NCBI GenBank assembly: GCA_018061755.1
Contig: JAGOTP010000001.1
Coordinates: forward strand, 62,001 to 126,000
Reading direction: 5' to 3'
Source of the DNA: Patescibacteria group bacterium
GTDB taxonomy: Bacteria > Patescibacteriota > Patescibacteriia > 2-12-FULL-60-25
Length of the DNA: 64,000 nt
Under the pieces are notes generated by a model. That model was not told where the DNA came from. It was given only the letters and a program-made list of their open reading frames with translations, and searched no databases. The translations under genes and the position numbers were made by a program. Positions 3,793-7,918 of the stretch are shown here, piece after piece. Every line of letters begins with the position of its first letter. The first letter of the stretch is position 1.

Positions 3793-6078
3793 ATGGCCAG
3801 ACGAAAACGCTCCTCCTTTGAATTTAAGCTTGATCCAGAAACGAAGCGAAGCGTTGCCGTAGTTTTTCTATGCGCGTTTTCGCTTCTTCTGTTCTTCGGG
3901 ATGTTCGATTTGGGAGGATCCCTGGGTGTGCGTTTAGACGGAGGCTTAACTTGGGTTTTTGGCTGGGATCGCTTCTTTTTGCCCTTCATCTCTCTCGCGA
4001 TCGCCTATCATCTGGCTGCCCCTGACCGCTTTCAGCTGCACGTAAAGAACATCATTGGAATCTGTTTGTTGTTTCTTTCCTTAAATCCGTTCATGCACGT
4101 GATTGCTATTCCGGAAGTTGGATCTGTGCCGGATCAGGTGGTGCGTGCGGTTGGAGGAAAGCTCGGTCACCTCCTGTCTGCTCCTTTGGTCGCGGTACTT
4201 GGTCTGTGGGGAGTCCGTATTCTGTTTGGGGCTTTGTTTGTCATCTCAGTCCTTTTGATTTTCAATCTAACCATTGAGCATATTAGATCGCTCTTTGATT
4301 GGATCAAGAAATTAGCCCTTGTATTGGTGCATGGAGTGTCTTGGCCAATGAAACAATTGATTCAATGGCGTGAACAAAGTCCAAAAGCCTTTTCAACCGC
4401 TCCAACTTCGACCAATGAACTCCTTCAGTCTTATCAATCCAATGCTGGCGAGGAAGAAGCGGTTGAGGATCTAGAAACGGTTTCGACTGAGGAGACGGAT
4501 GAAGAAGATGGCGCTGATGAGCCCGATGAGGAGGAAGAGTCTTCAGAAGAGGAAGGAGCGGGGGATGAGTCTGTTAAGCGAAATGTCCCAGCACCTAAGC
4601 CAAAGAAGCATTATCCTAAGATTGAAATTCCTCTTGATTTACTCGATCGCCGAGATCAGAAGCCAACGTCCGGTGACATCACTCACAATCGTGAAGTAGT
4701 TCGTCGAACTTTGGATAAGTTCGGGATCCCGGTTGATATGGGTGAGGTTTCGGTTGGCCCAACGGTTACCCAATTTACGCTCAAACCTTCTGATGGCGTG
4801 AAGCTATCGCGGATTACGGCTTTGCACAACGATCTAGCTTTGGCGTTGGCAGCTCATCCGATTCGTATCGAGGCGCCAATTCCTGGAAAGTCGTTGGTTG
4901 GAATCGAAGTTCCGAACCAATCTGTGGCAACCGTCGGTCTACGTGAGATCCTTGAATCGAAAGAATTCCGTGAACGGAAAGTTGGAGCGTTGAACTTTGT
5001 CCTAGGAAAAGACGTGGCTGGCAAGCCTTGGACGGCCGATCTCGGTCGTATGCCGCACTTACTGGTGGCTGGTGCGACCGGATCCGGAAAATCTGTCTGT
5101 TTGAACGTCATTATCATGACGCTGCTCTATACCTTTGGTCCGGATGAATTAAAGTTCTTGATGGTTGACCCGAAGCGCGTAGAACTGCAGGTCTACAATG
5201 GTTTGCCTCACTTGGTTACACCTGTCATTACAAAAACCAACGAAACGGTTAACGCGCTCAAATGGGGACTACGCGAAATGGATCATCGCTACGATCTTCT
5301 CTCGAAGGTGGGTGCGCGTGACTTAGCGAGCTACAACTCTCGAGTCGAAGATAAGATCCCTTATCTTGTCATCATTGTTGATGAGTTAGCGGACCTCATG
5401 GCGACTTCTTCGTCTGAGATCGAGGGACCGATCGTCCGTTTGGCCCAAATGGCTCGTGCGGTCGGTATTCATTTGGTTCTTGCCACCCAACGTCCGTCGG
5501 TTGATGTCATCACAGGCTTGATCAAGGCCAACGTTCCAGCACGTATCGCTTTTGCGGTTGCCTCATCGACCGATTCGCGCACCATTCTCGATCAACAAGG
5601 GGCAGATAAATTGATCGGCCGTGGTGATATGTTGCTTTCGACGGCTGAGCTTGCAACCCCAAAACGTATTCAAGGAGCCTTTGTGTCCGATGGCGAAATT
5701 TCTCGTGTCGTTGATTTCATCAAATCAAAGTGTGATCCAGCTGACTATGACTTCAGCGTCACTCAGCGTAATGGTGGTGGTCCCGGTGGCGCTGGTAGTA
5801 TCGGTGGTGGCGCAGGTGGTGATGGCGAGGATGATGATCCATTGCTGCCAGATGCCAAAGAAGAAATTATCCGAGCCGGCAAAGCCTCAGCTTCCCTTTT
5901 GCAGCGTCGGTTGAAAGTCGGTTATGCCCGCGCCGCTCGTTTGCTCGACTTGCTTGAGCAGGGAGGTTTTATCGGTCCTGCCGATGGTGCCAAGCCACGC
6001 GAGATTTTGAAGGCAGATTTTGGTCGACAGTTAGAATTAGATAGCGAGCCGTCTGAAGCAGAAGTAAACCAAGAATAA
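3793..6078 (+). CDS. ftsK: DNA translocase FtsK/SpoIIIE
   Basis: FtsK-type translocase, 761 aa, pumps chromosome ends through the division septum. Four hydrophobic segments lie in about the first 165 residues, followed by an acidic linker rich in Glu and Asp (about 215-260) and the RecA-like motor with Walker A GATGSGKSVCL (about 425-435) and Walker B VIIVDELADL. After a Gly-rich linker, the winged-helix gamma domain (SASLLQRRLKVGYARAARL) reads orienting sequences. It sits between recA and a rodZ-like gene, so chromosome maintenance and shape genes are grouped. Confidence 0.96.
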   Translation: MARRKRSSFEFKLDPETKRSVAVVFLCAFSLLLFFGMFDLGGSLGVRLDGGLTWVFGWDRFFLPFISLAIAYHLAAPDRFQLHVKNIIGICLLFLSLNPFMHVIAIPEVGSVPDQVVRAVGGKLGHLLSAPLVAVLGLWGVRILFGALFVISVLLIFNLTIEHIRSLFDWIKKLALVLVHGVSWPMKQLIQWREQSPKAFSTAPTSTNELLQSYQSNAGEEEAVEDLETVSTEETDEEDGADEPDEEEESSEEEGAGDESVKRNVPAPKPKKHYPKIEIPLDLLDRRDQKPTSGDITHNREVVRRTLDKFGIPVDMGEVSVGPTVTQFTLKPSDGVKLSRITALHNDLALALAAHPIRIEAPIPGKSLVGIEVPNQSVATVGLREILESKEFRERKVGALNFVLGKDVAGKPWTADLGRMPHLLVAGATGSGKSVCLNVIIMTLLYTFGPDELKFLMVDPKRVELQVYNGLPHLVTPVITKTNETVNALKWGLREMDHRYDLLSKVGARDLASYNSRVEDKIPYLVIIVDELADLMATSSSEIEGPIVRLAQMARAVGIHLVLATQRPSVDVITGLIKANVPARIAFAVASSTDSRTILDQQGADKLIGRGDMLLSTAELATPKRIQGAFVSDGEISRVVDFIKSKCDPADYDFSVTQRNGGGPGGAGSIGGGAGGDGEDDDPLLPDAKEEIIRAGKASASLLQRRLKVGYARAARLLDLLEQGGFIGPADGAKPREILKADFGRQLELDSEPSEAEVNQE

Positions 6079-6091
6079 TTCCAACGAGTCT

Positions 6092-6778
6092 ATGGGGTTC
6101 ATCCAAAAAAGCATCAACCCCGAAGGTGGTCTTGGTCGTGATCTGCTCGAATTGCGCACCAAAGCTGGACTTTCCTTGGCCGACGCTGCTCGCTTAAGCA
6201 AGGTATCAGAGGGGGCTATCCGTTCATTGGAGGAAGAGCGTTGGGAGGAGATTCCAGACCCGATCTATTTCGAACACGTGTTTCGTGCCTACCTCGCGCT
6301 TTTCCCGATTCAGCAGAACTACTATCTCCAAAAATACCGAGCTAGTTTAAAGATAAAATCTCGCGAGCGAACAACTCAAGAGCTATTGCCTCATCAGCGA
6401 GTGCGTTGGTTCGATCTGACCGTTTGGTCACGAGTGGTCGCGGTTCTGGGACTGTGTTTATTTGCTGGTTTGATCGGAGGCTACGTCTTCTTTCAAGTGC
6501 GTGCTGTGACGGCTCCTCCATTCTTGATGGTCGAAACACCGCGTGAAGGCGAGCGTTTGGCACAGCCGGTCGCAGAAATTCAGGGCAAGACCGAACCAGA
6601 TGCGTCTGTTTCAATTAACGGACGATCGGCCATCGTTGAAAAGGATGGTGTGTTCAAGCTCACGATCGATATTCCGTCTGGTCCAACCGTCATAGTTATT
6701 CAAGCGAAAAAACGTCGTGGAAAAACGGCTGAAGAAACCCGCCATGTCTTTTATCAACGAACGATGGATGCACCGTAG
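6092..6778 (+). CDS. RodZ-like HTH membrane protein
   Basis: Protein of 228 aa with the RodZ plan: an N-terminal helix-turn-helix (about residues 14-80, TKAGLSLADAARLSKVSEGAI), a basic juxtamembrane stretch, one transmembrane helix (about 109-132) and an extracytoplasmic beta domain (about 145-220). The outer domain (P-x-EGE...G-x-TEPDASVSING) resembles the glucodextranase-B-like fold common in CPR surface proteins. RodZ links MreB to the wall machinery; here a role in cell shape or envelope is inferred. Its ATG lies 13 nt after ftsK, so the two are likely one transcript. Confidence 0.75.
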   Translation: MGFIQKSINPEGGLGRDLLELRTKAGLSLADAARLSKVSEGAIRSLEEERWEEIPDPIYFEHVFRAYLALFPIQQNYYLQKYRASLKIKSRERTTQELLPHQRVRWFDLTVWSRVVAVLGLCLFAGLIGGYVFFQVRAVTAPPFLMVETPREGERLAQPVAEIQGKTEPDASVSINGRSAIVEKDGVFKLTIDIPSGPTVIVIQAKKRRGKTAEETRHVFYQRTMDAP

Positions 6779-6794
6779 TGTTAAAAAGCAACAA

Positions 6795-7538
6795 AAAATC
6801 CCCTGGCCAACTGCGAAGCGCTGTCACGCCGAGAAGTTCGGTGTTCGATAGTTGACGCAGGAGGAAAAGCATATTCGGAAGGACTCCAAATAGCCGCATC
6901 AGTCGACCACCAAGCGTGGCGTACAGCGATCCGCAACCGGACAGGGGATAGGTTCTATTGAGACTACGAAATACCGAGCCTTTGGTCAAGCGACAGGCGT
7001 ATCTTTAATGATTATTTCTGAAATACAAAACACGGGTCGATCATCAACACTGTGTTGGCACGAAGCCGCAAGCGTTGCGAACGGTGGCGAACCTGGGTCT
7101 GACGTGTGCCAGAGACAGGTGAAATGCCCTGTTCGGATGGGGTTGCCATCAATGACCAGCCCGTGTTTTGAAAACCGACACGATCGGACGAATGATAAAG
7201 AGGTGAGAGTCCCGAGGCGTCAGAGACGCGTTGGGACGTATGAGCGAGTACTGATGGGGGAGGTAGCCGTAGCCACCGAACCTATCTTCCTCGTTCTGCT
7301 TCGTGAGTTGCCGTGTTCGGTTCCCCAAGAAGGTCGTCCTCTTTATCGTTTGTCCGATCTCGCCAGCGTTTTGGAGGGTGGAGGTGGACACCGATGGTCC
7401 GAAGACCTGGTGTTCCGCAAGGGAGTGCTTGAGACGTTCGAGCCGTGGCCCAAACGAGTCAAACAGCAGCCTTGTTCCAGCGGCGGCTGGGAACCCTCCA
7501 AAACGCTGTAGAGATCGTTCGATCAGTTTGTGAAACAA
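6795..7538 (-). ncRNA. Large four-domain structured RNA, about 740 nt
   Basis: No convincing protein is encoded here on either strand. The minus strand has a near-consensus promoter and a set of long-range helices. Domain 1 (7355-7517) is closed by 7+16 bp and contains a GGUC-UUCG-GACC hairpin. Domain 2 (7194-7347) is closed by 10 perfect bp and contains hairpins with stems GUCCC/GGGAC and GCGUC/GACGC. Domain 3 (7026-7170) is closed by 11 perfect bp. Domain 4 (6802-6947) is closed by 22 bp with two U-C mismatches and runs straight into six U, forming an intrinsic terminator. Four G-U wobbles in the domain 4 helix exist only in the minus-strand RNA, which fixes the direction. Size and build recall the large ornate bacterial RNAs (GOLLD, ROOL, OLE, HEARO), but I cannot assign a family; function unknown. 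Confidence 0.8.
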
Positions 7539-7544
7539 CAGACT

Positions 7545-7573
7545 ATAATAATATAGGATTATTATTCTGTCAA
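7545..7573 (-). promoter_or_regulatory. Promoter of the large structured RNA
   Basis: On the minus strand TTGACA (7568-7573) is followed by a 17-bp AT-rich spacer and TATTAT (7545-7550). The -35 box is perfect and the -10 box differs from consensus at one position. Transcription would start near 7538, a few bases before the first helix of the RNA. Confidence 0.8.
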
Positions 7574-7662
7574 GCGACATGATGCACCTAGCTAAGTTTT
7601 TGGCTTAACCAAGCACAAATACTTGTTTAAGCGAACTTAACACATGAAGAGACTAAGTTGTC

Positions 7663-7785
7663 GTAGGCTGTGGAAGGTCTCCTGATCGAGACCGTCCGGC
7701 GTCGCTCTCAACCTACCTTTCCATAGTACAGGTCATCACTAGAAGCTAGCAATAAAATATTACTTATTTTGGCTAGGTTGAGAGC
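7663..7785. other. Gene-free stretch with long inverted repeats (possible small RNA)
   Basis: The gap 7579-7918 holds no plausible coding frame. It contains a 12-bp perfect inverted repeat (7704-7715 with 7774-7785) around a 58-nt loop, a GGTCTC/GAGACC hairpin (7676-7693), and an overlapping GTAGG/CCTAC pairing that would compete with the first. This could be a second structured RNA or the leader of the next gene; strand is unclear. Confidence 0.35.
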
Positions 7786-7918
7786 AATAAGAGGGCAATT
7801 GATCGATGATTTTACGAAAAATCTGGCCAGATTTTCCTGTGGATAGACTGTAGATAGTCCCAATTTCCCGCATGGTTACGGAATTTTACCGCTGCATCTA
7901 AAAAAAGAGGTAGGATTA

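Follow-up and report, generated by a model that had tools for sequence, protein, structure and literature searches.

Two candidate families of uncatalogued structured RNA between a rodZ-like gene and rpoB in a CPR bacterium

Introduction

What is encoded between a rodZ-like gene and rpoB in a CPR genome of ~1.15 Mb? In the window, that is, the whole stretch of 64,000 nt that was analysed, the gene order around this region is recA, ftsK, the rodZ-like gene (6092-6778), the RNA region, rpoB, and rpoC. Gene names at the window and at the loci of relatives were assigned from translated sequences, and the nearest named relatives of the window genome carry the label Candidatus Uhrbacteria. An earlier note had proposed that the region is a dedicated large non-coding RNA with four consecutive domains, possibly a member of a class such as GOLLD, ROOL, OLE, or HEARO. 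Our comparison indicates that the region very probably holds two separate uncatalogued RNA families, predicted from sequence on the minus strand and designated here RNA A and RNA B. The proposal of a structured, covarying, uncatalogued minus-strand RNA of CPR bacteria was therefore retained, whereas that of one four-domain RNA was not.

Results

Structure of the region in the window

The promoter, the helix closing each of the four domains, the cUUCGg hairpin of domain 1, and the terminator-like tail of domain 4 (CCAGGGGA-TTTTTT), all named in the earlier note, were found in the window (Table 1). The minus strand of 6792-7540 folded with -318.5 kcal/mol and a z-score of -11.4 (20 dinucleotide shuffles), and the plus strand gave a weaker z-score (-7.8, dinucleotide shuffles). 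The z-scores of the single domains were -8.1 (domain 1), -5.9 (domain 3), and -4.2 (domain 4); that of domain 2 (-2.2) refers to most of the domain only, in a fragment that lacks the 5' strand of the closing helix.

Table 1 Predicted features of the RNA region (window coordinates).
Feature	Position	Strand	Description
RNA A promoter	7545..7573	minus	TTGACA (7568-7573), 17-nt spacer, TATTAT (7545-7550); start expected at ~7538
RNA A, predicted transcript	7026..7538	minus	modules 1 and 2 plus domain 3; from fold and homology, 3' end inferred
Module 1	7356..7516	minus	closing helix GTTTTGGAGG...CCTCCAAAAC, three inner hairpins, cUUCGg at 7396-7407
Closing helix, domain 1	7493-7516 with 7356-7379	minus	
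Module 2	7192..7349	minus	P1 (7338-7347/7194-7203), P2, P3, P4; from models R1 and R2 and covariation
Closing helix, domain 2	7338-7347 with 7194-7203	minus	
Module 2, P2 hairpin loop	7311-7320	minus	CCGAACACGG
Module 2, P3	7284-7292/7246-7255; 7262-7277	minus	internal loop GAA/AGUA; tip GGUGGC-UACG-GCUACC
Domain 3	7026..7170	minus	11-bp closing helix CAAAACACGGG/CCCGTGTTTTG, several hairpins
Closing helix, domain 3	7160-7170 with 7026-7036	minus	
RNA B promoter	6961..6989	minus	TTGACC (6984-6989), 17-nt spacer, TAGTCT (6961-6966)
RNA B (former domain 4)	6805..6942	minus	~140-nt rod, unpaired pyrimidine bulge TGCTTTTCCTCC (6860-6871); from model R3 and covariation
Closing helix, domain 4	6918-6938 with 6809-6830	minus	
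RNA B terminator-like end	6793..6806	minus	CCAGGGGATTTTTT; from sequence

RNA A consists of repeated modules

When 57 relatives were searched with the whole region at the nucleotide level, only short chance matches were obtained, and synteny was therefore needed to find homologues. The interval from rodZ to rpoB was fetched from ~30 genomes of the same family. One of these loci (L073) gave a clear same-strand match at the same place (63% identity to window module 1, E = 2e-7, blastn), which was the first homologue, and short motifs then showed the RNA A element in eight genomes. The comparison shows a predicted RNA built from a module of ~155 nt, present in one to four tandem copies per locus behind a conserved, consensus-like promoter. 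This promoter (TTGACA...TGnTATAnT), a feature outside the R2 model described below, was seen ahead of the first module at 41 of the 48 loci. Domains 1 and 2, which the earlier note had read as two of four consecutive domains, turned out to be copies of this one module.

With model R1, nearly all rodZ-rpoB intervals proved to contain modules, frequently as two or three tandem copies; 32 of 41 genomes of the family had them, nearly always at this locus. In a survey of 286 genomes of the class, drawn from draft genomes, R2, a covariance model of module 2 built from 49 modules, gave matches in 31, namely every sampled genome of the window's family (19/19) and 12 of the 267 others; in 380 genomes sampled across the phylum it gave eight matches, all inside this class. 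Module 2 of the window matched R1 with an E-value of 1.6e-25, the window sequence being part of the R1 training, and R2 with 9e-24 (104 bits); such E-values are rough, since the models were short-calibrated. In module 1 of the window, mainly the closing helix was matched by R2 (16.5 bits), and module 1 of several relatives is a full-length R2 match. For domain 3, which may be the 3'-terminal part of RNA A, no homologue was found and R2 gave no match.

Covariation was examined in alignment A1, made with MAFFT from nine copies of domain 2 and not fitted to the model structure, in which 24 of 35 pairs showed two-sided change (55 cells against 17.7 ± 3.4 in shuffled and at most 15 in slid controls). 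The corresponding counts in A5, an alignment of 88 modules, were 33 of 35 pairs and 761 cells (239.8 ± 14 shuffled, at most 167 slid), but the structure of the model had been imposed on A5, as on A2, so that pair counts are inflated there and A1 is the cleaner test. In A5, G-U cells outnumbered A-C cells (289 against 121) and one pair was G.U in 87 of 87 rows, which fixes the minus strand for RNA A. The covariation in CPR homologues for which the earlier note had called was thus observed in the RNA A modules as well as in RNA B (see below).

P1 (ACGUGGAGG.../...CCUCCA..GU) is the closing helix of every module and is followed by P2, P3, and P4. In A5 the core of P1 is nearly fixed (G-C in 84 of 86 rows, A-U in 80 of 85), and the other helices vary. 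CCGAACACGG, or a sequence close to it, forms the P2 loop in 25 of 88 modules. A bulged-G-type internal loop is present in P3 of many modules, and a GAA / GUA loop in ~40%; P3 also has an invariant G.U/G-C pair under a tetraloop-type tip of the form NNGGN-UNCG-N'CUNN.

RNA B is a separate element

Domain 4 of the window corresponds to an element that stands next to rodZ in most of the family. This element reads CUGCGAAGCG ... CUCUCUCCUCC ... CGCUUUGCAG with a U-rich end, and many relatives have a TTGAC box at promoter distance upstream of it. The predicted fold is a rod with a long closing stem, in which a single strand, CUCUCUCCUCC, is conserved and unpaired; the consensus fold shows a one-sided pyrimidine bulge of ~11 nt together with smaller internal loops. 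Alignment A4, which contains 11 RNA B relatives, leaves the window out, and, like A1, was not fitted to a model structure, showed two-sided change in 30 of 46 pairs (68 cells against 26.3 ± 4.3). Model R3, also built without the window, recovered positions 6805-6942 with an E-value of 2.4e-5 in 1.13 Mb and found RNA B in 33 of 286 class genomes. RNA B was inverted at one of its loci (L007), and at two others (L159 and L166) it lay, in other Uhrbacteria, just upstream of rpoB and co-oriented with it, with no RNA A detected there.

These results bear on the view that the region is one RNA of ~740 nt acting as a single particle like OLE, GOLLD, or ROOL. Such a particle would account for the contiguous same-strand domains, with a single strong promoter before and a single terminator after them, and for their very stable joint fold. 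It is nevertheless very unlikely, because domain 4 has a promoter of its own, is inverted or stands without RNA A in other genomes, and is separated from the RNA A modules by orphan genes in relatives; the supposed four-domain particle would accordingly be two genes. Far less probable still, indeed close to negligible, is protein coding with incidental structure. Two ORFs that overlap the region are indeed open (143 aa on the minus strand and 167 aa on the plus strand), and the modules are somewhat richer in open frames than mononucleotide-shuffled sequence (1.49 against 0.85 of six per module), an excess which we take as a compositional effect. The lengths of 88 homologous modules, however, are spread evenly modulo 3 (29, 34, and 25 for remainders 0, 1, and 2), conservation lies in base pairs and not in codons, and no frame-keeping alignment with synonymous bias was found for the RNA region. 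The reading frame is not kept among homologues, in line with the statement of the earlier note that a plausible protein is absent.

Comparison with catalogued RNAs

An Rfam scan of the window region gave no match at the gathering score and none with a meaningful E-value. When the window region and 20 homologous loci were analysed by cmscan with E-values up to 5-10, no GOLLD, ROOL, OLE, HEARO, or raiA was detected; the suggested membership in one of the first four classes was thus not confirmed. RNA A is like GOLLD, ROOL, and OLE in being a large intergenic bacterial RNA with an elaborate covarying structure, but differs from them in its repeated ~155-nt modules and its chromosomal locus beside rpoB, glyS, or holB. 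GOLLD and ROOL are encoded by phages or prophages, often near tRNA islands (PMC12286853). A tRNA search at 39 RNA A loci yielded one tRNA, and no tRNA-like elements were found at the modules. A phage or plasmid origin of RNA A was considered and rejected, as no match was found in phages or plasmids; three pattern matches in IMG/VR were judged to be chance, lying inside coding genes and giving no R2 match. A literature search, mostly without subscription papers, retrieved no publication on structured RNAs of the RNA A or RNA B kind from CPR bacteria. Given this and the lack of an Rfam match, structured RNAs of CPR bacteria seem little explored, and two families that covary strongly and have conserved promoters would be direct candidates for Rfam.

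The RNA A module resembles 5S rRNA (RF00001) in its three-way-type junction, and the P2 loop CCGAACACGG of the window is identical to loop C of 5S genes of the family (L219-L221, L223, and L228). The GAA/AGUA loop, often seen in P3 of RNA A, is a feature of the eukaryotic and archaeal loop E. In searches made both ways, the module loci gave no 5S match, and R1 reached only chance level on 5S loci (7.1 bits, E = 1.3). RNA A was also considered as tmRNA, and this was rejected as no RF00023 match was obtained. True 5S genes were located elsewhere in 27 of 41 family genomes and tmRNA elsewhere in 12 of 12 genomes tested (in the window genome at C30:135961-136385). RNA A is therefore a divergent copy of neither 5S rRNA nor tmRNA.

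C-rich, or anti-Shine-Dalgarno, sRNAs occur in Firmicutes. RNA B is comparable to them in its unpaired CUCUCUCCUCC strand, which is complementary to Shine-Dalgarno (SD) sequences, but it differs in forming one long rod; the motif alone is in common, and the targets are putative.

Genes around RNA A in relatives

In most relatives, SD-led, GC3-rich, and fast-evolving orphan ORFs lie 3' of the module, sometimes alternating with further modules, and often one SD-led ORF is found per module (L075, L082, L089, and L096). As many as 128 of 172 downstream ORFs are singletons, without a relative among the others. A Pfam search with ten of the downstream ORFs gave a Toprim domain in one and one low-complexity match, and nothing else useful. 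The ORF with a Toprim_4 domain occupies positions 4297-5886 of locus L100. Orphan-gene islands in the same genomic place had almost no common content (e.g. L064, L071-L075, and L093-L100). RNA A also marks a locus that combines a stable RNA module with orphan genes that change fast, and would offer a handle on many unexplained genes of the reduced CPR bacteria. No SD-led orphan gene follows RNA A in the window, so that a role as leader cannot apply there; the module accordingly occurs with or without downstream genes.

Outside the window's family the locus of RNA A differs but recurs within a family. In family f40 (L244, L249-L251, L253, and L254), the modules lie between frr and glyS, which we take to encode ribosome recycling factor and glycyl-tRNA synthetase, respectively, and are upstream of and co-oriented with glyS. 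RNA A stands beside holB in family f46 and beside rpoB in several others.

Proposed roles of RNA A and RNA B

Taken as a whole, the account that we favour, and to which we give slightly better than an even chance, comprises two separate RNA genes and a proposed mechanism. The mechanism, in which RNA A would be a translation-linked leader or non-coding RNA module with a masked SD sequence and RNA B an anti-SD sRNA, is put forward tentatively and, as drawn from sequence conservation, would more probably fail than hold. The GGAGG/CCUC core of P1 stays fixed while the other helices change freely, suggesting that the letters of the core are read, and the simplest reading of such a core would be a masked SD sequence. 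Binding of the ribosome, a protein, or an RNA on the P2-P3 side might open P1. The module would then serve, in most relatives, as the leader of SD-led orphan genes, and in the window genome, where these genes are absent, it would persist as a stand-alone non-coding RNA. RNA B would most likely pair through its anti-SD-like strand with targets of the GGAGGAGAG type, possibly including RNA A itself in some genera.

Pairing between the two RNAs was examined in the genomes. In G035 and G061 (L099 and L163), 17 contiguous Watson-Crick pairs can form between GAGUUCUUCUCUCCUCC of RNA B and GGAGGAGAGAAGAACUC of an RNA A module; 10-14 contiguous pairs were found in several other genera, and the pairing was weak in the window. 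Pairing within the same genome was not above that between genera (permutation p = 0.076 by energy and 0.17 at the genus level). A bolder extension, which we consider improbable, is that RNA A is a ribosome-directed modular RNA that RNA B opens or silences by pairing, the two forming a translation switch. Each module would then display an SD/anti-SD helix, to which the Uhrbacteria family would add the look-alike of 5S loop C. If this were true, a two-RNA switch confined to part of the CPR would drive a set of fast-evolving orphan genes.

Two other explanations were weighed against the favoured account. RNA A might be a purely cis-acting leader (riboswitch-like or protein-binding) of an orphan operon, with the window copy as a gene-less remnant, a possibility that we hold to be real but doubtful. 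The SD-led ORFs 3' of the modules in most relatives, often one per module, and the co-oriented modules upstream of glyS in f40 point in this direction. However, the downstream genes, mostly singletons, have no common function, in which ligand-sensing leaders differ, and the copy in the window does not look decayed, since RNA A folds well there (z = -11.1) and scores 104 bits. It is also conceivable, but unlikely, that RNA B is the missing RNA polymerase-binding 6S RNA (RF00013) of these bacteria: it is likewise rod-shaped, single-copy, and of similar size (~140 nt), lies near rpoB in many genomes, and no 6S RNA was detected by the Rfam model in 41 family genomes. This last result is weak evidence, since the same model gave a match in only 5 of 14 control genomes. 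Furthermore, RNA B loci tested against RF00013 gave no match at E-values up to 10, and the open strand of RNA B appears one-sided and pyrimidine-only in the consensus fold, which may set it apart from the large two-sided central bubble that defines 6S RNA.

Other observations at RNA A loci

In one contig labelled Alphaproteobacteria (L200, JAQUHK010000155.1), two RNA A modules accompany an rpoB end that resembles that of Uhrbacteria; the label is probably a binning error. Upstream of the RNA A promoter in the window, the minus strand of 7590-7880 is a well-folded stretch (z = -4.7) containing two hairpins, a long one (GCTCTCAACCTA...TAGGTTGAGAGC) and GGTCTC...GAGACC. Some relatives (L068, L075, and L134) have elements similar to TTAGCCAAAAT upstream of their RNA A.
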